Positions 39,546-50,417 of a stretch of 64,000 nucleotides of DNA are shown in pieces; the first letter of the stretch is position 1; each line of letters begins with the position of its first letter. The notes below the pieces were generated by a model, which worked only from the letters and a program-made list of their open reading frames with translations, had not been told where the DNA came from and made no database searches. The DNA comes from Marinilabiliaceae bacterium. Its GTDB lineage: Bacteria > Bacteroidota > Bacteroidia > Bacteroidales > Marinilabiliaceae. Made by a program: the position numbers and the translations under genes. The stretch is from assembly GCA_016342595.1 (NCBI GenBank), contig JAEINY010000001.1, forward strand, positions 62,001-126,000, read 5' to 3'.

Positions 39546-40118
39546 ATGAAAAGGAAACGTTATTTGGACACCGAGCTGTTGGAAGGAATTTACAATAGAG
39601 ACAGCCGTATTGTTAAGTATATTATGGATATGGTCTGGCAGCCAGTCAAAGAGTACGTCTTAGCAAACAGTGGAAATAAACACGATGCAATGAACCTCAT
39701 ACAGGAAGGTATTCTTTCGATCTACTCACGGCATGAAAAGCCGCAATTATCCTGTAGTTTTACTACTTATTTTTATTCTATTTGTAAGAATATGTGGTTG
39801 AATGAACTTCGAAGGAAGAAAAAAGTGAATGAAGTTGTTGTTGAGTTTGATTGTATGATTCAGGAAAATGAAATTGCCGAGAAACAATTGTATGAAAAAA
39901 GAAGACAATTGTATCTCCGATATTTTAGTCAAATAGGAAAAGTCTGTCAGGATGTATTACGATTAATGTCAAAGGGATTTTCGAATGAGGATATAACTGT
40001 TGAATTGGCATTTAGTTCTGTGCAGTATACGAAAAACAGAAAATCTACCTGTAATAAACGATTGGTTGAGTTGATTAAGAATGACCCGGAATATAAAGAA
40101 TTGAGATATGGATTATAA
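39546..40118 (+). CDS. ECF-type RNA polymerase sigma factor
   Basis: A 190-residue sigma-70 family protein. Region 2 lies at about residues 20-90 (helices around NLIQEGILSIYSRHE and SFTTYFYSICKNMWLNELRRKK, the latter the region 2.4 helix). Region 4 lies at 130-185 (VLRLMSKGFSNEDITVELAFSS, VQYTKNRKSTCNKRL as recognition helix). It overlaps the next gene by 11 bases, the usual arrangement of a sigma factor with its membrane regulator. It is the first gene of the sigma/TPR/CHAT module. Confidence 0.88.
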   Translation: MKRKRYLDTELLEGIYNRDSRIVKYIMDMVWQPVKEYVLANSGNKHDAMNLIQEGILSIYSRHEKPQLSCSFTTYFYSICKNMWLNELRRKKKVNEVVVEFDCMIQENEIAEKQLYEKRRQLYLRYFSQIGKVCQDVLRLMSKGFSNEDITVELAFSSVQYTKNRKSTCNKRLVELIKNDPEYKELRYGL

Positions 40119-40842
40119 TCATAAAATATTGGGGCTTTTTTCAGGAGACTTACAGTCTGATGAAAGAAAAGAACTAAGTTTAGCCTGTGCAAACGAGGCA
40201 GCGGTTCAGGAAGATCTTAAGCTGCAACAGGAGCTGTTATTCGCCATCAGTAATGGCGAGGATGATGTGGTTGATTTCAGAAATCAATTGAAGGAAATTG
40301 GTGACAATTTTCTTGATGATAATGAAAAGCCCCGACGTCTTATTCCGGCTTATTGGGCTGCAGTAGCTTCGGTTATTATCATTGTCGGATTAGTGAGTTA
40401 TCTGGGCTTATTCTCCAATGAATATTACACTGGTGATTATGCCTTCTCTAAATATTATGAACCTTTCGGGTCGTCCATGACTGTGCGTGGTGAAGGGCGT
40501 TCTTCTCAATTGGAAAATGCGGTCACTTTTTATCAGAAAGGTAAATTGACTGAGTCATTACAAATTTTTGAAAAACTCAAATCAGATAACAGAGAATTAG
40601 CTAGTTTCTTTTCCGGACTGTGTTACCTTGAATTAGGTATGATTGATAAAGCCTCAGATGAATTAACAGGCATTAAGAAAGAGGCTGTATTTTATGCCGA
40701 ACATATTGATTGGTATCTGGCCCTTTGTTACCTCAAACAAGGGCAATCGGATAAAGCCAAAGATCTTCTGAAGGATATGGCAGCTGGTAATAATCAGTAT
40801 TCAGAAAAAGCTAAAGATATTCTGGATAAGATAAAGAGTTAA
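40108..40842 (+). CDS. Single-pass membrane protein with periplasmic TPRs, candidate anti-sigma factor
   Basis: A 244-residue protein. Residues 1-85 are a soluble helical part (DERKELSLACANEAAVQEDL) before KPRR, then one membrane helix (LIPAYWAAVASVIIIVGLVSYLGLF, about 88-110). The C-terminal half has two or three TPR-like units (LENAVTFYQKGKLTESLQIFE, FFSGLCYLELGMIDKASDEL, WYLALCYLKQGQSDKAKDLL). Positive charges before the helix place the N-terminus inside and the TPRs outside. Overlap with the sigma gene and this topology suggest an anti-sigma or co-sensor, but no classical zinc anti-sigma motif is seen. Its stop overlaps that of the convergent CHAT gene. Confidence 0.8.
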   Translation: MDYNHKILGLFSGDLQSDERKELSLACANEAAVQEDLKLQQELLFAISNGEDDVVDFRNQLKEIGDNFLDDNEKPRRLIPAYWAAVASVIIIVGLVSYLGLFSNEYYTGDYAFSKYYEPFGSSMTVRGEGRSSQLENAVTFYQKGKLTESLQIFEKLKSDNRELASFFSGLCYLELGMIDKASDELTGIKKEAVFYAEHIDWYLALCYLKQGQSDKAKDLLKDMAAGNNQYSEKAKDILDKIKS

Positions 40843-43800
40843 TGTTGTTTTTTACTTCGAATGTAGATCCATATAAATATAAGGAATACTATAAATGTCG
40901 TTAGGCTAATGAACCAGCCGAGCGGCATTTTTTGTCTTAACGCGGAGGTGTCTCCACTTAATATATAATTAGCCCAGTAATAAGGATGAGACCGAATGGC
41001 ATCGCTGGAATGAATGTAATTTAGTTTGGCATTCTGTAGGGCATGATCCTTAGTTAATACATCTTTTAAGCCGCTATAAAACAACTTGGTTAATTCTGAT
41101 CCGGATACATCATTGACAGGCCAGAGGGTCATTAATTGACTTTTGGCACCCGAAAACATGAAAGCCCTGGCTATGCTAATCAAACCTTCACCATTTTTTT
41201 TACGTCCCCTTCCTGTGTTGCATGAACTTAATACCACCATCGGGGATTGTATGTTGTAGTTATAGAGTTCATAAGCTCTCAATATATCACTGGAATCATT
41301 GCGGGCTGCAAATACCAACTGGGAATTAAGTGGTTGAGAATCGTCGATTAGCGAATGCATAGCCAGATGTAAAATATTATTGTTTGCTAAATGGGTTATG
41401 AAGTTGGCTTTGGAGGCCTCATCGTCCAGCAAGAGATCAGAATGAAATAGTTTACTGATGTATTTAACTTCTGATCTGGCAGCATTTAAAGGGAGCAGGT
41501 TTTTATTAATGTTACGTTTGATCGATAGTAAAGTAGAGTCGTGTAGTTGTTGATTGCCGTAATAGTTAGGTGCAAATGCCAACACTTGATTAAACTTGGT
41601 AGTGTTAGAATGATGATCCGGTAAAAGTGCAGCATTATAGGCATATGAAATAGCATTTTGCCGGATTAACCACGGAAACTCTTTGAATAGTGGTTTGTTG
41701 GAAACAGGAATTTGTGTTAATAAAACTTCAAAAGGTAAGTACGCTAAATCGGAATGCGGCACAATAATCAAATCCCTGTTGTGAATAACAGATGATAAAT
41801 TTCCCAGTAGGATGGAATAGAGGTGATTGGACGATGCTATAAATTGCTTGATTTCTTCTAGTTTTCGATTGCCAATAAAGGGTGTGGATACTTCTTCTGT
41901 AACAAGTTTTAAATCTTTATAAAATGTGCTATCAATTTTTTGATTGAAGAATAAAAACTGTTCAGCTGTAAATACATACTGATACAATTTATTGTCCGTT
42001 AAATAGTAATCAATTAAAACCTGATTCTCCCCCAGATTGTTTTGGAGTTCTTTGCTGGTAATGTGTTGTGGTGAGTATTTTAGTTGGTAATATTTGGGAT
42101 AGTTAGATTGAATGTGGTGATTAATACTGTCAAACTTCTGCATGTAAAGATCCACATAGCCATTTAGATGGTTGAGAATGCTGGTATCGGGTTGAGCCTG
42201 GCGGCTTTCTGTTTCAAATTCATTTTGGTAAAACTTGAGTTTGCCTTTGATGTTGTTTTCTTCCCGAATCGTTTGCTCTGGAATGCCGGCACGTATTTTC
42301 CATTTGCGGTCATTGACACCCAGTAGCAGTGAATAGGCTTTGCCTTTTTGTGAGTAAGTAAAAGCTTTCTCCAGATACCCATCTCCCGGTAGCTCTTTGT
42401 TGAGAGCTGTAGTAATTTCCATACCCAACTTTGTATAGTCAAAGTAACTATCTCCAGTAGCCATTTGGTCCCGGTCGAATTGCAAACCCGAACGTACCTG
42501 ATCAATGAGTAAATCCGCTTGTTGCAAATGCTTAAAAGCTTGTTGTAATTTGCATAATTTTCCCGTTTGTAGGTACTCGGCATAAAGAGTACGGGTATAA
42601 TTGAGGTTGATACGTTTAAATAGACGTTTTATATCTGATTGAATGTGTGAAGTTAGAATGTATCCATACTTTTCATTCATTTCGTTGTACACTGTATTTA
42701 ATAATAGTTCAGCTTTTGAATAGTCCCTTAAATTTAGATAACAATTGCACATGTCATTGGAATTGTCCCAAAATTCATAGCGTCCATAAAGTTCCTGGTT
42801 TTTCACAAGGTTATCAATTAACTGAAAATTTTGGAGGGCTTTTTTAAAGTTTCCCAATTGGTAATACGTCCAGGCAAGTTGATTGATGAAGATTTTGTCA
42901 GAGTTGGTATGTGGAGCTTGATTTAACTTATACGCAATAATAGCAGAGTCCAAGTATCTATAAGCTTGGTCATATTGTTTTGTTTTTGATAAGATTCTTG
43001 CGGTATTGGTATAATAGAAATGGGTTTTGTTGTCTCCCTTTATTTTGCTTTCTTCTATAGCTAGTTTTGCATGTGCAATGCTTAATTCAATTTGATCATT
43101 TTTCTCATAGATACGTGATATTTTTGATTGAACTGCAGGCCTTTTATTATTATATCTGCTTGACCTACTTATTAATGATAAGGCCTTATTAAAGTGACTT
43201 AGGGCTTTTTGATGATGTCCATCAAAAAATGCTTTCTCACCTAATTTCAAATAGAAGAAGCCGAAGTCGTTCTTGTTTTTTGGTAGTTGAGATTGGTGAA
43301 AGTCTTCAAGTTTCTGGGATATTGAAATATAACCTATCTGACTTTCCGTTTTATGATAGTGATCTAATAGGATTGAATAAAGAAAGGTATTGTGATAGCT
43401 TATTTCTTGATTAAACGGATATGAGAGGACTTCTTTATTAAAGAATTCTGCTTCTTCAAATCTTTTTAGATATAAGCTTAAAGTTTGTATTATAGATCCG
43501 GCAGTGATATTAAAATTCTCGTAATTTTTACTCTGTGCTAAAAGTTCTTTTTCGATTTCGTATGAGAGTTTGTAGTAAAATAATGCTTTTTGCGAGTTAT
43601 TTTCATTTTTGTAGCAAATTGCTAAGTTGTGGTAAACTTTTGTTTTTATGCTATCTGGTAAAGGGTTGAGTGAATCTTTTTTAAGTATTTCGTGGAAAAT
43701 TGTTTTGGATATATTGTATTTATTGAAGTTTAAGAAGAATGTTGCCTTGTAAAACTGAATGATATTAACTGCTAAATCAAAAGATTCATTAGATTTTACA

Positions 43801-44054
43801 CTATTAATGAATTCAACGGCTTCATCATATTTGCCTAGCTGTGCATATGCTTTTATTAGTGTGGAAAAAAGAATCATGGATTCTCTTGTGGAATAATTAG
43901 TTGCAGGTATTTCTTTGTGATTCTCAATAAGGAGTTCGTAATTACCTGTATTATAAAGCCGGATTAGTTTGATGAAATTATCTTGATTATTCTCACAATA
44001 ACAATGTGTTGTTAATGTACATAAAACCAGTGTTATAAATATAACTCTTCTCAT
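40839..44054 (-). CDS. Secreted, membrane-anchored TPR-CHAT protease
   Basis: A 1071-residue protein with a signal peptide (VIFITLVLCTLTTHCYC). About 600 residues of TPR-like helices follow (for example ALSHFNKALSL, AYRYLDSAIIAY, KALQNFQLI). The CHAT (caspase-like) domain spans about 720-1030, with catalytic His900 (ILHLAMHS) and Cys945 (VVLSSCNTGRG) both present. A final membrane helix (WFISLTTFIVFLIFIWIYI) anchors it, so the protease faces the periplasm. It converges on the sigma/TPR pair and is divergent from the peptide genes, with 95 bp between. TPR-CHAT proteins are known as regulated proteases; this one's target is inferred, not shown. Confidence 0.9.
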   Translation of the reverse strand: MRRVIFITLVLCTLTTHCYCENNQDNFIKLIRLYNTGNYELLIENHKEIPATNYSTRESMILFSTLIKAYAQLGKYDEAVEFINSVKSNESFDLAVNIIQFYKATFFLNFNKYNISKTIFHEILKKDSLNPLPDSIKTKVYHNLAICYKNENNSQKALFYYKLSYEIEKELLAQSKNYENFNITAGSIIQTLSLYLKRFEEAEFFNKEVLSYPFNQEISYHNTFLYSILLDHYHKTESQIGYISISQKLEDFHQSQLPKNKNDFGFFYLKLGEKAFFDGHHQKALSHFNKALSLISRSSRYNNKRPAVQSKISRIYEKNDQIELSIAHAKLAIEESKIKGDNKTHFYYTNTARILSKTKQYDQAYRYLDSAIIAYKLNQAPHTNSDKIFINQLAWTYYQLGNFKKALQNFQLIDNLVKNQELYGRYEFWDNSNDMCNCYLNLRDYSKAELLLNTVYNEMNEKYGYILTSHIQSDIKRLFKRINLNYTRTLYAEYLQTGKLCKLQQAFKHLQQADLLIDQVRSGLQFDRDQMATGDSYFDYTKLGMEITTALNKELPGDGYLEKAFTYSQKGKAYSLLLGVNDRKWKIRAGIPEQTIREENNIKGKLKFYQNEFETESRQAQPDTSILNHLNGYVDLYMQKFDSINHHIQSNYPKYYQLKYSPQHITSKELQNNLGENQVLIDYYLTDNKLYQYVFTAEQFLFFNQKIDSTFYKDLKLVTEEVSTPFIGNRKLEEIKQFIASSNHLYSILLGNLSSVIHNRDLIIVPHSDLAYLPFEVLLTQIPVSNKPLFKEFPWLIRQNAISYAYNAALLPDHHSNTTKFNQVLAFAPNYYGNQQLHDSTLLSIKRNINKNLLPLNAARSEVKYISKLFHSDLLLDDEASKANFITHLANNNILHLAMHSLIDDSQPLNSQLVFAARNDSSDILRAYELYNYNIQSPMVVLSSCNTGRGRKKNGEGLISIARAFMFSGAKSQLMTLWPVNDVSGSELTKLFYSGLKDVLTKDHALQNAKLNYIHSSDAIRSHPYYWANYILSGDTSALRQKMPLGWFISLTTFIVFLIFIWIYIRSKKQH

Positions 44055-44149
44055 TGTTTTAAAAAAAAATGAAAAAAAAGTTTAGAAAAAGGTGTTACGA
44101 TTCTGGCTTTTTGCAATTAACAGGTATAAATCAATAAATAATAAAGGCC

Positions 44150-44281
44150 ATGAAAACGAAACGTATCAATACCAAACGAGGACAATTTAAGAAGTTTACA
44201 GCAAAAGAGCACACTTTTCTGAAGAAGATTGTGGGTGGTGAGGAAGATACACAAACAGGTTATGAAAAAATAAAGTGGTAA
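44150..44281 (+). CDS. Double-glycine leader peptide precursor, copy 1
   Basis: A 43-codon gene starting at ATG 44150. The N-terminal 30 residues are basic and end in HTFLKKIVGG, a double-glycine leader with hydrophobic residues at -4 (Ile) and -7 (Leu). The predicted core is EEDTQTGYEKIKW, 13 residues with a C-terminal Trp and no Cys, Ser or many Thr for ring formation. It is 40/43 identical to the second copy at 44404. An exporter with a C39 peptidase, the enzyme class that cuts after GG, is encoded 2.6 kb downstream. Signal, bacteriocin or toxin are all possible. Confidence 0.85.
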   Translation: MKTKRINTKRGQFKKFTAKEHTFLKKIVGGEEDTQTGYEKIKW

Positions 44282-44403
44282 TAATATTGATGATTTGGCT
44301 TTAAGATTTTTTGACTACTACTTAGAGTGATCAGTATGCAAAAACAAAATTTTACTAGATAATATGGAATTTAATTAATATAAACCAAAACCTAATAAGA
44401 GCC

Positions 44404-44535
44404 ATGAAAACGAAACGTATTAATACCAAAAAAGGACAATTTAAGAAGTTTACAGCAAAAGAGCACACTTTTCTGAAGAAGATTGTGGGTGGTGAAGAAG
44501 ACACACAAACTAGTTATGATAAAATAAAATGGTAA
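44404..44535 (+). CDS. Double-glycine leader peptide precursor, copy 2
   Basis: 43 codons from ATG 44404. It differs from copy 1 at R10K, G37S and E39D only, and about half of the roughly nine or ten base changes are silent, so both copies look maintained. The predicted core is EEDTQTSYDKIKW. Each copy has its own upstream stretch of about 100-120 bp, and the bases just before the ATG are alike (AAAGGCC and AAGAGCC), so they may be separately transcribed. Confidence 0.85.
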   Translation: MKTKRINTKKGQFKKFTAKEHTFLKKIVGGEEDTQTSYDKIKW

Positions 44536-44591
44536 TGATTTTGCATTATTGATATTGTCAGCATAAAGATATTTTCCCGATTACTAAAACC

Positions 44592-44607
44592 GATCTGAAC
44601 GCAGATC
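44592..44607. other. Small hairpin between peptide copy 2 and the first winged-HTH gene
   Basis: GATCTG-AACG-CAGATC is a 6-bp stem with a 4-nt loop. No T-run follows, so it may be an RNA structure or operator rather than a terminator. Confidence 0.3.
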
Positions 44608-44705
44608 AAAGCTTGGTGAGAAGAAGATGATGGGGACAGTGCTATAAGGACTTCGATCAGTCTCCATGTCTTCTCTTCATTTTTCATCCTCAAAAACAAT
44701 GCACT

Positions 44706-44981
44706 TTGTCTATTAAAGAGATTAATCGTACAATCGCGTGGATTGATCAGGAGATTCGCGAACAACAAACCGGAACACCTGATCAGTTGGCTGGCAAACT
44801 GAAAATGTCAGTCAGGTTGTTGTATTATTATGTGGATATGATGAAATTGCTAGGGGCGCCCATTGAGTATTCACAAGAGAATAATAGCTTCATTTATTTG
44901 CGTAGTGGTTATTTCTATCAGGGGTATAAGTGGATTGAAGATAATCAGGAAGTGCCTGAATCATCCAAGCGTCAAATCTAA
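44706..44981 (+). CDS. Small winged-helix (HTH_11-like) protein, copy 1
   Basis: A 91-residue protein. A helix (EINRTIAWIDQEIREQQTG) leads into TPDQLAGKLKMSVRLLYYYVDMMKLLGAPIEY, which has the helix-turn-helix and wing pattern of the DeoR/HTH_11 group (residues about 24-65). A wing strand NSFIYLRSGYF follows. No ligand domain is present. The best start is TTG at 44706, since no ATG lies in frame before the HTH. The same TTG-TCT codons start the paralogue at 45318. As a DNA-binding regulator it may control the peptide genes next to it; alternatively it could be an immunity protein, for which there is no direct evidence. Confidence 0.75.
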   Translation: MSIKEINRTIAWIDQEIREQQTGTPDQLAGKLKMSVRLLYYYVDMMKLLGAPIEYSQENNSFIYLRSGYFYQGYKWIEDNQEVPESSKRQI

Positions 44982-45317
44982 ACGACATCGTTTTTTTAAT
45001 TAGCATTCTAGCTTATCAACCCGGTCACCAATCAGTAGTGGTCCGGGATTTTTTATGCCAAAGTATTTGGTTCGTATATTGAGGTTTTGTGATTTCAGGA
45101 TGGAGATTTTAATGATTTTCAAGTTTGTTGTATTATTCTCTGTCATCATAAATCCACTTGGTATTGTTGATAAAAAGGAAAAGTATCCCAAAACTTGAAT
45201 TGATCTTTCGAATTGCATAACTTTATCGTAGTAAAAAATAATGGGGTAGACTTTCTATCCAATTTGTTGAAGTGTTGGTTTCTTCTTGTTTAGTATTTAC
45301 CTCAAAATTTGTGTGTT

Positions 45318-45587
45318 TTGTCTTCAATAGAGATTAATCGTACCATCGAGTGGATCGATCAGGAGATTCGCGAACAAAGAACCGGCACGCCCAATCAACT
45401 GGCCGGTAAGCTAAAGATGTCTGTTCGCTTATTGTATTATTACCTGGACATGATGAAGCTATTGGGGGCACCCATTGATTATTCGCAAAAATCAAAAACT
45501 TTTATTTATCTCAAAAGTGGTTATTTTTACCAAGGCCATAAATGGGTGGAAGGCAGTCAGAAACTTGTTGATAGGTCTGAAGATTAA
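45318..45587 (+). CDS. Small winged-helix (HTH_11-like) protein, copy 2
   Basis: An 89-residue paralogue of the protein at 44706, with 63 of 77 aligned residues identical. The HTH core KLKMSVRLLYYYLDMMKLLGAPI is almost unchanged, while the last 15 residues differ. The start is taken at TTG 45318, which aligns exactly with the TTG of copy 1; a further in-frame TTG lies at 45309. The 336-bp gap between the two paralogues has no supported gene. It is 69 bp before the hlyD-like gene. Confidence 0.75.
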   Translation: MSSIEINRTIEWIDQEIREQRTGTPNQLAGKLKMSVRLLYYYLDMMKLLGAPIDYSQKSKTFIYLKSGYFYQGHKWVEGSQKLVDRSED

Positions 45588-45656
45588 CTAATGCACCTTT
45601 ATTGGTCACGTAATCTTTATTATTTATTTTTTTTTCATTAGATTCGACTTTGTTTA

Positions 45657-46832
45657 ATGCAAGCTATGTCGAAATCTGAACTTGAAAAAGGCCTGTCTAC
45701 TTCTCATCGGTATAAAGCTTATTCTGCCTACTATTATCGAGGCACTGTTTTGTATTGGCTGATTCTTATTATTTTTTTTGTTTCGGTATTATCACTACCA
45801 TTTCTCAAGGTGGATGTTAGCGTTCAAAGTCAAGGTGTGATACGTACCTTAAATCAGGTGAGTCCTATTCATTCTCCCCTCACAGCACAAATTATATCCA
45901 TACTGGTGCAAGAAAATAGTCTGGTTTATGCAGGCGATACGCTGGTGTGGCTCAATCGCTCGGGCATTGATCATGAATTAGTGCATGTTGATCAACAACT
46001 TAAAATGCATGAGATTTTTCTTCGAGACCTGGATTTGCTCCTAACAGCCCAACAGATAAAACCTGAAGTTCTTTCTTCTTTATATCAAAAGGAGTGGGCC
46101 GATTTCAAAAGTGATCAAAACCAGAAGAAGCGAAAGCTGGAAAAAGTGAGAGTAGATTATAATCGGTCATTTGGGTTGTATCAGGAAGGGGTAATCCCCA
46201 ATGTGAACTTTCTGGAAGACTCCTTTCGATTACAGGCAGCGATTGACGATTTGGAAGTCGCTAAAACCGGTCAGTTTGCAAACTGGGAGAAAGATCGAAA
46301 AGATTATTTCCAGGTAGTTAATGAATTAAGTGCAAAGCTGGAGAATTTGCATCAAAAGCGAAATAAGCATTTTATAATTGCACCGTTTACAGGTTTTATT
46401 CTTGATTTTAATGGGAAAGGAGTCGGGAGTTTTATGCAGGAGAATGAATTGATTGCGCGCTTATCACCACGTGAAAAACTTTTGGCAGAGTGTTATGTGC
46501 GACCATCTGATATTGGATTAATTAGCGATAGCATGGTTGTTCAATTTCAAGTGGGGGCATTCCCTTATAATGAATGGGGATTGGCTACCGGGAAGGTGGT
46601 AAGCATAGCAAAAGATGTTGTAGAGATGGAAGGCAACTGGTACTATAAGGTGCGTTGTCAGCTAAATCAAAACTTTCTGGAACTCAAGAATGGTGTGAGG
46701 GGGTCATTTAAAAAGGGGATGGATCTAACCGGGCGTTTTATTGTGACTAAGCGTTCACTATATCAATTGTTATTTGATAATGTGGATGATTGGTTGAATC
46801 CGAAAATTGTACAAAAAGAACTAGATAAATGA
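45657..46832 (+). CDS. HlyD-family membrane fusion protein of a peptide exporter
   Basis: A 391-residue protein. One membrane helix (VLYWLILIIFFVSVLSLPFL, about residues 30-50) is followed by the lipoyl/barrel half (VSPIHSPLTAQIISILVQENSLVYAGDTLVWL), a long helical hairpin (about 105-230) and the second half (HFIIAPFTGFILDF). It links the inner-membrane ABC exporter to an outer-membrane channel, which is not encoded nearby. Its stop overlaps the exporter start (ATGA, 46829-46832), showing translational coupling. A second ATG at 45666 is also a possible start. Confidence 0.93.
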   Translation: MQAMSKSELEKGLSTSHRYKAYSAYYYRGTVLYWLILIIFFVSVLSLPFLKVDVSVQSQGVIRTLNQVSPIHSPLTAQIISILVQENSLVYAGDTLVWLNRSGIDHELVHVDQQLKMHEIFLRDLDLLLTAQQIKPEVLSSLYQKEWADFKSDQNQKKRKLEKVRVDYNRSFGLYQEGVIPNVNFLEDSFRLQAAIDDLEVAKTGQFANWEKDRKDYFQVVNELSAKLENLHQKRNKHFIIAPFTGFILDFNGKGVGSFMQENELIARLSPREKLLAECYVRPSDIGLISDSMVVQFQVGAFPYNEWGLATGKVVSIAKDVVEMEGNWYYKVRCQLNQNFLELKNGVRGSFKKGMDLTGRFIVTKRSLYQLLFDNVDDWLNPKIVQKELDK

Positions 46833-48985
46833 AGTTATCTGTTGGGCAGTTTGATAGAAGTGATTGTGGCGCAGCATGCCTGGCTTCTGTCACCCGTTAT
46901 TATCATTTGAAACTGCCGGTTTGGAAAATCCGGCAGTTGGCCGGTACTAATCGCATTGGCACCAGTGCATATGGCTTGGTAAAAGCGGCTGAGCAGATTG
47001 GTTTAGAAGCCAAAGGTGTGGAGTTGGAATCGGCAGATCTGGTTGAGATTCCTTTGCCCGCCATTGTTCATCTGAAATTGAAAAATGGGGGTCACCATTT
47101 TGTAGTGATTTATAAAGTGACCAAACGGAAAGTGAAAATCATGGATCCTGCGCAAGGGCGAATGATTCAGCTTTCGATGGATGATTTTTTGGCTCAATGG
47201 ACGGGCATCGCCATATTATTGATTCCAGGGTTGGAATTTCAGGGAGGCAATGAGAAAAAGTCAAATTTTTCGCGCTTCGCGGATTTGATAAAGCCACATC
47301 GAAAAGTCTTTCTTCAATCGGGGGTAGGAGCATTAGCTTTTACTGTTATGGGATTATCCACTGCTATCTATATTCAGAAGTTGACTGATTTTGTGTTGGT
47401 CGGGCACAATCGAAATTTACTGCACCTGATGGGTGTCATTATGTTGGGTATTTTATTTTTTCAAGTGATAATTGGGGCGCTGCAATCGATATTTGTATTG
47501 CGTGTGGGACAGAATATCGACAGTGTTTTAATTACGGGTTATTATAATCATTTACTACGGTTGCCGCAACGGTTTTTTGATAGCATGCGTGTAGGTGAGT
47601 TAATTTCCAGGGTGAATGATGCGGTGAAAATCAGAAGTTTTATTAATCAGGTGGCAGTTGAAGCAGTTGTGGATGGTCTTATTATTATCATGGCATTTCT
47701 GCTTATGTTGGCGGTTAATTGGAAGTTAGCGCTTTTTACCTATACGGTATTGCCCGTTTATGGCCTGATTTATTTTTTTACCAATTTCTTTAATCGCAAG
47801 GTGGAGCGAAAGCAAATGGAACAAACGGCTGAGCTAGAAACTCAATTGGTAGAATCGTTGCGATCGGTAAAAACCATTAAACAGATGGGGGCAGAAACCT
47901 ATTTTTCTAATCAGGCTGAAGGGAAATTACTTAAAGTATTGGATCAGGTTTATCAGTCCGGTAAAACCAATATTTTTTCCTCCTCTTCTATGATGATGAT
48001 TAATAGATTACTCACAGTTGCTATTTTATGGATGGGGGCTGGTTTTGTGATTGATAGTTATTTAACACCCGGTGAGTTAATGTCATTTTTTGCTATCACC
48101 GGTTTTTTTACCGGACCCGTTTCCAGGTTGTTAGCTATGAATAAAAGTGTTCAAGGCGCTTTGATTGCCTCTGATCGTTTGTTTGAAATATTAGATCTAG
48201 AACGGGAAACTAATGTGAAAGAAAAATTGAAATTATCTAAGGATGATTTGGGAGATATCTCTTTTCAGAAGGTTCAATTCTCATATACACTGGAGCAAGA
48301 TCTGTTTGATGATTTATCCTTTACTATTAAGAAGGGGCAAATTACCGCTTTGTTGGGTGATAGTGGTTCAGGTAAATCGACCATCGGACATTTAATTCAG
48401 GGATTGTATCAAATAACCGGCGGTAAAATTTCCATTGGACAATGTGATCTTCGTTATGTGGATCCAGTTGATTTAAGGGGCATGGTGGGTGTGGTTTCAC
48501 AACAAATAGAATTGTTTGCAGGAAATGTCATTGAAAATATTGCACTGGGCGATGTGCGTCCGGATATGAACCGGTTGAATGCCATTATTCATCAATTGAA
48601 ATTAGATGATATGATTGATGTTTTGCCCGAAGGATTGTATACCTGGTTGGGGGAGAATGCCAATCAATTATCAGGAGGGCAGCGCCAGCGATTGGCTATT
48701 GCGCGAGTGATGTATCTTAGTCCTGAAATATACATTTTCGATGAGGCCACTTCTTTCTTGGATGATCGCACAGAAAAGGTTATTAAGCAGTTGATGTTGC
48801 AACTTCAAAAGGATGGAAAAACAATCATCATGGTGGCGCATCGTATGAGTATTATTGATATCGCCGATCATATTTTTGTGTTTCGACAAGGGCAAGTAGA
48901 AGAGTCTGGGACTTATCAACAACTCATCCAAAATAAAGGTCGTTTTTCGGAAATGGTACAACATCATGTGGCAGTTCCCGTGTGA
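46829..48985 (+). CDS. Peptidase-containing ABC exporter (C39 type, PCAT)
   Basis: A 718-residue exporter. Residues 1-135 are a C39 cysteine peptidase with Cys13 (DRSDCGAACLASV), His89/His90 (GGHHFVVIY) and Asp106 (KIMDPAQG), so it should be active on double-glycine leaders. Six membrane helices span about 155-440. The ATPase has Walker A LLGDSGSGKST, signature LSGGQRQRLAIARV and Walker B IYIFDEATSFLD. The two small GG peptides at 44150 and 44404 are the obvious substrates. No lanthipeptide, radical-SAM or other modifying enzyme is present in the cluster. Confidence 0.95.
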   Translation: MKLSVGQFDRSDCGAACLASVTRYYHLKLPVWKIRQLAGTNRIGTSAYGLVKAAEQIGLEAKGVELESADLVEIPLPAIVHLKLKNGGHHFVVIYKVTKRKVKIMDPAQGRMIQLSMDDFLAQWTGIAILLIPGLEFQGGNEKKSNFSRFADLIKPHRKVFLQSGVGALAFTVMGLSTAIYIQKLTDFVLVGHNRNLLHLMGVIMLGILFFQVIIGALQSIFVLRVGQNIDSVLITGYYNHLLRLPQRFFDSMRVGELISRVNDAVKIRSFINQVAVEAVVDGLIIIMAFLLMLAVNWKLALFTYTVLPVYGLIYFFTNFFNRKVERKQMEQTAELETQLVESLRSVKTIKQMGAETYFSNQAEGKLLKVLDQVYQSGKTNIFSSSSMMMINRLLTVAILWMGAGFVIDSYLTPGELMSFFAITGFFTGPVSRLLAMNKSVQGALIASDRLFEILDLERETNVKEKLKLSKDDLGDISFQKVQFSYTLEQDLFDDLSFTIKKGQITALLGDSGSGKSTIGHLIQGLYQITGGKISIGQCDLRYVDPVDLRGMVGVVSQQIELFAGNVIENIALGDVRPDMNRLNAIIHQLKLDDMIDVLPEGLYTWLGENANQLSGGQRQRLAIARVMYLSPEIYIFDEATSFLDDRTEKVIKQLMLQLQKDGKTIIMVAHRMSIIDIADHIFVFRQGQVEESGTYQQLIQNKGRFSEMVQHHVAVPV

Positions 48986-49061
48986 TTTTAACTCTACATT
49001 GCATTTCGTAAATCCCTTGTAAAACATTTTCTTTGCACTCTCTTATTGAAAGTAAAGTAGC

Positions 49062-50417
49062 ATGGATATATCGGGATTGTGGAAGCGTTGTTCCAATCAT
49101 TATTGGTCAAATCTGAAGTTGGCTACACCTGTTGTATTAGCACAAGCTGGACAGATGTTGGTGGGGCTAGCTGATACGCTGATGGTAGGGCGGATTGGAG
49201 CCACTCCTTTGGCGGCTGTATCCTTCGCCAATAGTATTTTTATTAATATTCTGGTGTTTGGAATCGGTATCTCCTATGCATTGACTCCATTAGTAGGAAA
49301 AGCATTTGGGAAGGGAGATCAGGAATCATGTAAATATTGGTTACGTCAGGGCGTTATTACGAACTTGATAATCGGCGTTCTGTTGGCTCTTTTTGCAGGT
49401 GGTATTGCTTTCTTTATGCCCTTTATGGGACAAGATCAGGCGGTAGTTGATGCAGCCATACCATATTTTCTTCTATTGGTCTTATCAATAGTACCCTTTC
49501 AGGTATTTGCCGGTTATAAACAATTCGCCGAAGGACTGAGTAATACCAAAGTAGCCATGTTGATCACCTTAGGAGGTAACCTGGTGAATGTGGGATTGAA
49601 TTTCGTGTTAATTTATGGATATCTGGGGATGCCGGAAATGGGGCTTGTAGGAGCAGGCTGGGGAACATTATTATCCAGAGTTTTTATGGCTGTTGCTTTT
49701 GTTTGGGTGTTTAATCGCTTTCAGTATTTTAAGCAATATTATCATGCAACCGGGCCTTATATATCACGTGCAGCATTTGTCCGACTATTTAAATTGGGCC
49801 TTCCGATTGGTCTGCAATTTGTAATCGAAGTTTTTGCCTTTAGCCTGGGTAGTATCATGATGGGCTGGATTAATGCAACCAGCTTGGCAGCTCATCAAAT
49901 TGTGTTGAGTTTAGCGAGTATGACTTATATGATGTCCTCCGGATTGGCTTCAGCTACTACCATAAAGGTGAGTATCTTCCGGGGGAGAAAAGAATCAATT
50001 AATATTCAGGATAGTGCCTTCGCTTCTGTTCATCTGGTTATTGTGTTTATGAGTGTGATGGGAGTCTTGTTTGTGATGCTTCGTCAATGGATACCTCATT
50101 TATTCATCGCTGATCAGGAGGTTATATCAGTGGCCGCTGGCTTGATGCTGGTGGCGGGCATATTTCAAATATTTGATGGGGTGCAAGTGGTATCTTTAGG
50201 AATACTACGAGGATTAGAAGATGTTGTAGTACCAGCCATTGGTGCAGGTGTAACTTATCTTTTGGTGGCTATTCCGGTGAGTTACTTGTGTGCTTTTAAA
50301 TTTGAAATTGGCCCTATGGGGATTTGGATTGGTTATTTAGTGGGATTATCTGTAGCTGGTGTTTTTTTATTGTCACGATTTAGGTGGTTATACAAAAAGC
50401 GATACGCTGAGAAATAG
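49062..50417 (+). CDS. MATE family efflux transporter
   Basis: A 451-residue inner-membrane protein with about twelve hydrophobic segments. The start LKLATPVVLAQAGQMLVGLADTLMVGRIG and the mid-protein GLPIGLQFVIEVFAFSLGSIMMGW are typical of the NorM/MATE group, which uses Na+ or H+ to export drugs. It lies 77 bp after the peptide exporter, so it might be co-transcribed with it and could protect against a toxic product, but MATE genes are also common alone. Confidence 0.93.
   Translation: MDISGLWKRCSNHYWSNLKLATPVVLAQAGQMLVGLADTLMVGRIGATPLAAVSFANSIFINILVFGIGISYALTPLVGKAFGKGDQESCKYWLRQGVITNLIIGVLLALFAGGIAFFMPFMGQDQAVVDAAIPYFLLLVLSIVPFQVFAGYKQFAEGLSNTKVAMLITLGGNLVNVGLNFVLIYGYLGMPEMGLVGAGWGTLLSRVFMAVAFVWVFNRFQYFKQYYHATGPYISRAAFVRLFKLGLPIGLQFVIEVFAFSLGSIMMGWINATSLAAHQIVLSLASMTYMMSSGLASATTIKVSIFRGRKESINIQDSAFASVHLVIVFMSVMGVLFVMLRQWIPHLFIADQEVISVAAGLMLVAGIFQIFDGVQVVSLGILRGLEDVVVPAIGAGVTYLLVAIPVSYLCAFKFEIGPMGIWIGYLVGLSVAGVFLLSRFRWLYKKRYAEK

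Follow-up and report, generated by a model that had tools for sequence, protein, structure and literature searches.

A candidate short-peptide export system with winged-helix proteins and a promoter-like block in a Marinilabiliaceae genome

What is exported from a locus in which a peptide exporter stands behind two genes of only 43 codons each, and how would these genes be controlled? I address this question for positions 44150-48985 of the window (the whole stretch of DNA analysed, 64,000 nucleotides, C36:62001-126000 in a Marinilabiliaceae genome of 6.76 Mb in 461 contigs), where two 43-residue precursors, two small winged helix-turn-helix (wHTH) genes, a HlyD-type gene and an ABC exporter with a C39 peptidase domain follow each other in one direction. 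The reading I prefer, and regard as reasonably probable on what the sequences offer, is that short linear peptides are exported by this peptidase-containing ABC transporter (PCAT), that they likely act as signals, and that wHTH regulators and a sigma factor promoter control them.

The C39 domain of the exporter (46829..48985, + strand) matches Pfam Peptidase_C39 at 1.5e-35, and PCAT1 (4ry2), the closest solved structure, aligns nearly end to end (phmmer E 2.6e-140, residues 4-709 of 718). An earlier, sequence-only reading of this locus had held that the peptidase retains Cys, His and Asp; indeed Cys13, His90 and Asp106 align with the PCAT1 triad, and an N-terminal C39 domain with these residues, followed by ABC membrane and ATPase domains, places the protein among the PCATs. 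Among NCBIfam models TIGR01193 bacteriocin_ABC fits best, though it stays under its cut-off, and a contig scan with stretches of the exporter, which are poorly conserved, returned 16 distant relatives, mostly from other phyla. Immediately upstream, overlapping by 4 bp and likewise anticipated by the earlier reading, lies the gene of a HlyD-family membrane-fusion protein (45657..46832, +; Pfam HlyD_3 1.1e-10; TIGR01843 1.9e-29, below cut-off).

The twin precursors, at 44150..44281 and 44404..44535 (both +; by open reading frame (ORF) and family alignment), are as described before: 40 of 43 residues are identical, each leader of 30 residues ends in FLKKIVGG, and the 13-residue cores are EEDTQTGYEKIKW and EEDTQTSYDKIKW. 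The two genes differ in 9 bases and 3 residues, two of these residues in the core. Neither precursor matches a Pfam or NCBIfam family at E 1, which includes TIGR04149, presumably the model for Bacteroidales natural product precursors with a double-glycine (GG) leader. A search with a five-row alignment against 149 related genomes (E 0.1 or better) gave 18 genomes, of which 16 are convincing: the window's own (two copies), 14 of the genus g359 (one copy each) and G700 (two copies). By ORF reading there are thus 16 homologous precursors in 15 other genomes, and 18 in all. The matches in two further genomes, at E 0.03, lie inside frames of 392 and 505 amino acids and were set aside as chance. An earlier search with a single sequence over 295 genomes of the order returned the own genome and 26 others at E 0.07-1, which I also take as chance because many of the matches lie inside long frames or contain stops; it took the five-row alignment to reach the family.

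The sequence-only reading expected such relatives to keep the leader and vary the core, and this holds: averaged over all pairs of the 18 precursors, identity amounts to 67% across the final 18 residues of the leader, 28% in the core and 16% in the core middle. The cores have 13-20 residues and begin with Asp or Glu in all but one case (Gly), and short motifs (KIKW, KIKL, KVQI or KKIDV, for example) close them. Their net charge is negative in 15, neutral in two and +1 in one; 17 of the 18 are free of Cys. GG leaders usually carry hydrophobic residues at -12, -7 and -4 before the GG. The window leader has Leu-7 and Ile-4 but Lys at -12, and the leader of the first G700 precursor has Leu at -12 and Met at -7. 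By analogy with other PCATs, cleavage after the GG and export of the cores would be expected.

These same features bear on whether the cores are rather unmodified bacteriocins or toxins of class II type, the twin copies forming a two-peptide toxin. A PCAT, a GG precursor and a HlyD protein are the classical bacteriocin equipment, the best NCBIfam model of the exporter points that way, and longer, more hydrophobic GG peptides occur in the paralogous clusters L099, L102 and L109. However, short, mostly acidic and nearly always Cys-free cores do not suit such a toxin, and no immunity gene was recognised in the conserved cluster, where a small unfamiliar one could still be present. The two bacteroidetocins described in PMC6671954 differ as well, with 42-residue cores, four Cys and a thiol oxidoreductase gene in their regions. 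I therefore consider the bacteriocin alternative unlikely, and a signal more likely than a bacteriocin. The earlier suggestion that a signal was at least as likely seems reasonable for hydrophilic cores without Cys pairs and without a recognised modifying or immunity gene.

Lys, Asp, Glu and Thr can be used by the enzymes of ribosomally synthesised and post-translationally modified peptides (RiPPs), and RiPP recognition elements (RREs) have a winged-helix fold. As the cores contain these four residues and the wHTH proteins share that fold, an enzyme from another part of the genome could modify the precursors, which would make them RiPPs, and the wHTH proteins would be RRE-like leader binders and not DNA binders. 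In agreement with the earlier reading, a Pfam scan of ten genes (39546-50417) gave no lanthionine, radical-SAM or cyclase domain, and among these genes no modifying enzyme of lanthipeptide, sactipeptide or graspetide type was found, enzymes elsewhere in the genome not having been sought. Moreover, no PqqD-type or RRE match occurs in the Pfam families shown for the wHTH proteins or among the 50 Foldseek matches listed for the first of them. These matches are mostly DNA-binding winged helices, at E 0.09 or worse. The AlphaFold model (mean predicted local distance difference test 86.7) places three helices before four strands, an order that also speaks against an RRE. I regard the RiPP alternative as very unlikely; the model points instead to a winged-helix fold of the DNA-binding type, with DNA binding as the predicted function.

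The two wHTH genes themselves (44706..44981, TTG start, without a GG tail, by AlphaFold and Foldseek; 45309..45587, TTG start with another in-frame TTG three codons on, by ORF; both +) had been called 82% identical. This figure stands for the first 75 aligned residues (83%) and falls to 75% over 85, where the divergent C-terminus is included.

Their relatives provide the link to the peptides. Across the phylum, C39 exporters are often found near wHTH relatives, many of which end in a GG leader plus about 10-30 residues, so that a putative regulator is joined to a peptide that looks exportable; in the clade of the window, wHTH and GG peptide are separate genes. Because the two are one polypeptide in many relatives, I infer that they also work together where they are separate. 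The leader motif was found in 17 of 28 proteins of a phylum-wide set and in 12 of 44 of a second set, against 0.6% in shuffled tails, proportions that are biased upwards, as tailed members went into the wHTH profile and some tails were already known when the motif was defined. A C39 exporter lies in the fetched stretch in 17 of the 28 and 18 of the 44, raw counts given without a computed chance rate and obtained with an iterated C39 profile, which replaced the one-seed profile used in the comparison of the g359 and paralogous loci. The first set comprises the stretches fetched for phylum-wide wHTH matches (L163-L190), matches in long frames of about 200-400 amino acids being excluded. The second covers family and order, with 40 stretches chosen from 115 listed places and several contigs cut, and one of its loci (L343) holds three near-identical wHTH paralogs. 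In the profile searches behind these sets, part of the candidates was scored per genome. A further count, 47 of 62 wHTH proteins near a C39 exporter, is not relied on, since the set includes loci fetched for exporter or precursor. In a selection of 18 tailed members, taken from the C108-type clusters described below and from other loci, the second Gly never varies and the first is conserved to at least 90%; one motif-positive protein (L172) ends right at the GG. In the model of the tailed protein from C108 the domain is well folded and the tail poorly ordered. No NCBIfam or Pfam model names this family, and a class IIb bacteriocin model was matched weakly by three of 17 members (best E 0.0099).

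The winged helix might then be nothing but a bulky leader, comparable to the nitrile hydratase and Nif11 domains, and the tailed proteins no regulators at all. Domain-sized GG leaders have precedent in PMC2887384, and where a cluster also has separate precursors, their leaders look similar to the wHTH tails. However, the window-clade wHTH protein stands alone, lacks a GG and recurs in each of the 13 g359 loci fetched, for which a mere leader role has no explanation. I hold the bulky-leader alternative to be improbable, and continue to read the wHTH proteins as putative regulators.

A few other wHTH genes were observed along the way. L323, L325 and L326 hold small wHTH genes close to GG precursors of other kinds, which contain Cys in L323 and L326 and are aromatic in L325; no C39 exporter was detected in the stretch, and these are possibly other natural-product systems. 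The own genome has a tail-less wHTH gene about 54% identical to those of the window (L100:6612-6899, contig C115), on a 15-kb contig without a C39 exporter, where by eye an ECF-like (extracytoplasmic function) sigma gene and outer-membrane transport genes stand beside it.

The neighbourhood is well kept in near relatives. The 13 loci fetched, out of 14 g359 genomes that carry the precursor, all have the order CHAT (divergent), precursor, wHTH, HlyD, C39-ABC, MATE. The expectation that precursors would stand beside related exporters was thus borne out in the window and in 13 of 13 g359 loci, but not in G700, where no exporter is visible beside the precursors. CHAT and MATE are unproven parts of the system, as flanking genes among near relatives may reflect plain synteny. 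A second kind of cluster, which the own genome also contains once (C108), is marked by exporters about 50% identical to that of the window. A wHTH gene is present in nine of 12 loci of this kind. Its product mostly has 101-119 residues, with one of 143, and in most cases a GG or AG site is followed by 11-26 terminal residues.

In front of precursor 1 lies a promoter-like block, GGTGTTACG-N14-CAATTAAC (44091..44121, +), 28 nt 5' of the ATG and conserved in the region between CHAT gene and precursor in the window and 14 relatives. The pattern occurs once in the window and not at all in 100 shuffles. In the form TGTTACG-N(13-18)-CAATTAAC it has five sites in the own genome and ten, five and one in three g359 genomes, with none in the backward control. 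With at most one mismatch, on which the counts rest, it is present in 10 of 10 g359 genomes compared and in 0 of 13 others, controls being zero, whereas two mismatches give 0-2 backward-control matches per genome. The 71 distinct sites were each assigned to a family if one of its members starts no more than 400 nt away, whether or not as the first gene. They include 15 at precursor starts, ten at wHTH genes (five with the GG motif), two at genes encoding only a LytTR domain and one too short to tell. The block ends 22-28 nt before the precursor ATG, a spacing that suits a core promoter. In the paralogous clusters it precedes the wHTH-GG gene in L101 and L102 (one mismatch), while L099, L107 and L114 show stray four-mismatch matches only and L103, L109, L110 and L112 none, which means that these exporters are not all in the regulon.

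Other block-bearing genes deserve a brief description. Proteins of about 224 amino acids without a Pfam match (e.g. in L264, L265 and L269) follow the block at 12 of the 71 sites, and families of 115 amino acids, 161 amino acids and a DUF6261-like one of 240 at 15 more; for three of the block-following families, the first 100 residues were scanned with Pfam. In L278 (G722) the block occurs at two wHTH genes with about 11.7 kb between them, one GG-tailed and one shortened, each followed by a protein of 323-345 amino acids, one of which starts with a GG-leader-like stretch.

I initially read the block as a direct-repeat operator of LytTR type instead of a sigma promoter. LytTR half-sites lie about 22 bp apart, and so do the halves GTGTTACG and GCAATTAAC. 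The block also stands before the gene of a LytTR-only protein (Pfam 1.6e-18) in G722 and G747 and, with two mismatches, in G730. In the block-bearing genomes G000 and G700, however, no close LytTR-only protein was found (best 31% and 35%, in longer frames), and the block ends 22-28 nt before the precursor ATG, whereas AgrA repeats centre near -60 from the transcription start (PMC4227749). After comparing LytTR genes, sigma orthologs and individual sites I downgraded the operator, as no close LytTR-only gene was found in G000 or G700, to an unlikely alternative.

A candidate reader of the block as a promoter is a sigma factor encoded about 4 kb upstream (39546..40118, +; Sigma70_r2, Pfam 4.6e-8). 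In a search of 14 genomes including the own, G700, G692, G716, G708, G722 and G730 each have one ortholog of 57-65% identity; the other seven have none, except for a 26% match in G029, and the block is likewise absent from them when one mismatch is allowed. In all 14 genomes, then, sigma gene and block are either both present (seven) or both absent (seven). As the positives come from three genera and are not independent, this is suggestive only. The sigma gene is adjoined by that of a membrane protein with tetratricopeptide repeats (TPR) and a hydrophobic stretch at about 84-102 (40108..40842, +; Pfam and hydropathy), in the own genome, G700, G722 and G730 and in L104-L106. This protein might be an anti-sigma partner, the two then forming an ECF sigma and anti-sigma pair, although it matches no anti-sigma model. 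Between it and the precursors, divergent to the latter, lies a caspase-like TPR-CHAT gene (40839..44054, -; Pfam CHAT 5.9e-50), whose product has a signal-like N-terminus and a C-terminal hydrophobic stretch by hydropathy. The gene keeps this place in each of the 13 g359 loci fetched and also in L191, and its neighbourhood is what suggests that it belongs to the system.

From gene order, conservation, motifs and co-occurrence I infer peptide cleavage and export, signalling, DNA binding, the pairing of sigma factor and block, and a CHAT step in the following form. The C39 domain would recognise the 43-residue precursors by their leaders and cut after the GG, and the 13-residue acidic cores would leave through PCAT and HlyD, to act most likely as signals and not as killers. 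The small wHTH proteins would be DNA-binding regulators functionally tied to the GG peptides, and transcription would start at the block, most likely a core promoter recognised by the neighbouring sigma factor. The membrane TPR protein would keep this sigma factor inactive, and the TPR-CHAT protease might set it free. A bolder version closes the loop: outside the inner membrane, the TPR-CHAT protein would sense the exported core with its TPR part and would then cut the membrane TPR anti-sigma, and the freed sigma factor would fire the block in front of precursors and wHTH genes. In the wider relatives, where regulator and peptide are one protein, PCAT export would separate the transcription factor from the peptide it carries and so report transport or density to the genome. 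I consider this closed loop unlikely.

Several observations weigh against the reading of exported signals under sigma control, besides the upward bias in the tail proportions and the non-independence of the sigma-block agreement. No receptor was identified, no search having been aimed at one, and the block only suggests co-regulation. Of its 71 sites, 27 lie at four other protein families and 16 at something else, so that the regulon is wider than the peptides. The sigma gene is absent from the stretch in four of 13 g359 loci (L193-L196); in G722 and G730 it lies elsewhere in the genome (G736 and G747 fell outside the search). In the window leader, position -12 is Lys and not hydrophobic. A relative of the window HlyD protein was detected in only four of 44 rows of the second wHTH set, and three of the 12 loci with exporters of about 50% identity showed no wHTH gene. 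Finally, G700 has two precursors and one wHTH gene without HlyD or PCAT beside them: both precursors lie at contig ends, one contig leading to the wHTH gene and then to other genes, and the best exporter in that genome, among the 18 scored out of 51 candidates, is 29% identical. This points to a break in the assembly at that place or to a missing exporter.

Gram-positive bacteria are well known for signalling by peptides. In the literature searched, which left most subscription papers aside, I found no linear PCAT-exported signal peptide described in Bacteroidota, no fusion of a winged helix to a GG peptide, and not this precursor family. A DNA-binding domain fused to a GG peptide, present in several Bacteroidota families, is an unusual architecture. 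The constant leader and changing core make a precise target for mass spectrometry, and the block common to these genes points to one candidate sigma factor that is directly testable.

Among known systems, PCAT1, ComA and LahT share with the window the C39-ABC architecture, the catalytic triad and a GG-leader substrate beside the exporter; the window differs in its very short acidic cores, its HlyD and wHTH partners, a block common to other genes, and precursors that match no Pfam or NCBIfam model. The ComC and BlpC pheromones have a dedicated PCAT. According to PMC5295010, these streptococcal GG pheromones resemble the window in the short GG peptide and in a promoter element common to several target genes; in the cluster, however, no pair of histidine kinase and response regulator was recognised, and a sigma/TPR/CHAT module stands beside the cluster instead. 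The bacteroidetocins of PMC6671954 also come from Bacteroidota and have a GG leader and a C39 exporter, whereas the four-Cys toxins, thiol oxidoreductase and transmembrane gene that mark them were not recognised in the window cluster; the cores, with 13-20 residues and in 17 of 18 cases no Cys, do not have the length of about 40 residues and the Cys pairs of bacteroidetocins or class IIa bacteriocins, and no thiol oxidoreductase gene was seen among the ten genes scanned. The module at 39546-44054 recalls the CASP or Craspase system, in which, according to PMC10028731, a TPR-CHAT protease cuts a sigma inhibitor (Csx29 TPR-CHAT, Csx30, CASP-sigma): here too a TPR-CHAT protease stands beside a sigma factor and a possible inhibitor. 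No CRISPR gene was recognised, and the ends of the CHAT protein suggest an extracytoplasmic position. I treat the resemblance as analogy and not as membership. The wHTH-GG relatives, in turn, resemble the nitrile hydratase (NHLP) and Nif11 precursors, in which, according to PMC2887384, a whole domain precedes the GG site and a tail that varies, with an ABC exporter nearby; they differ in having as this domain a winged helix, short at about 90 residues, which in the clade of the window is a stand-alone protein.

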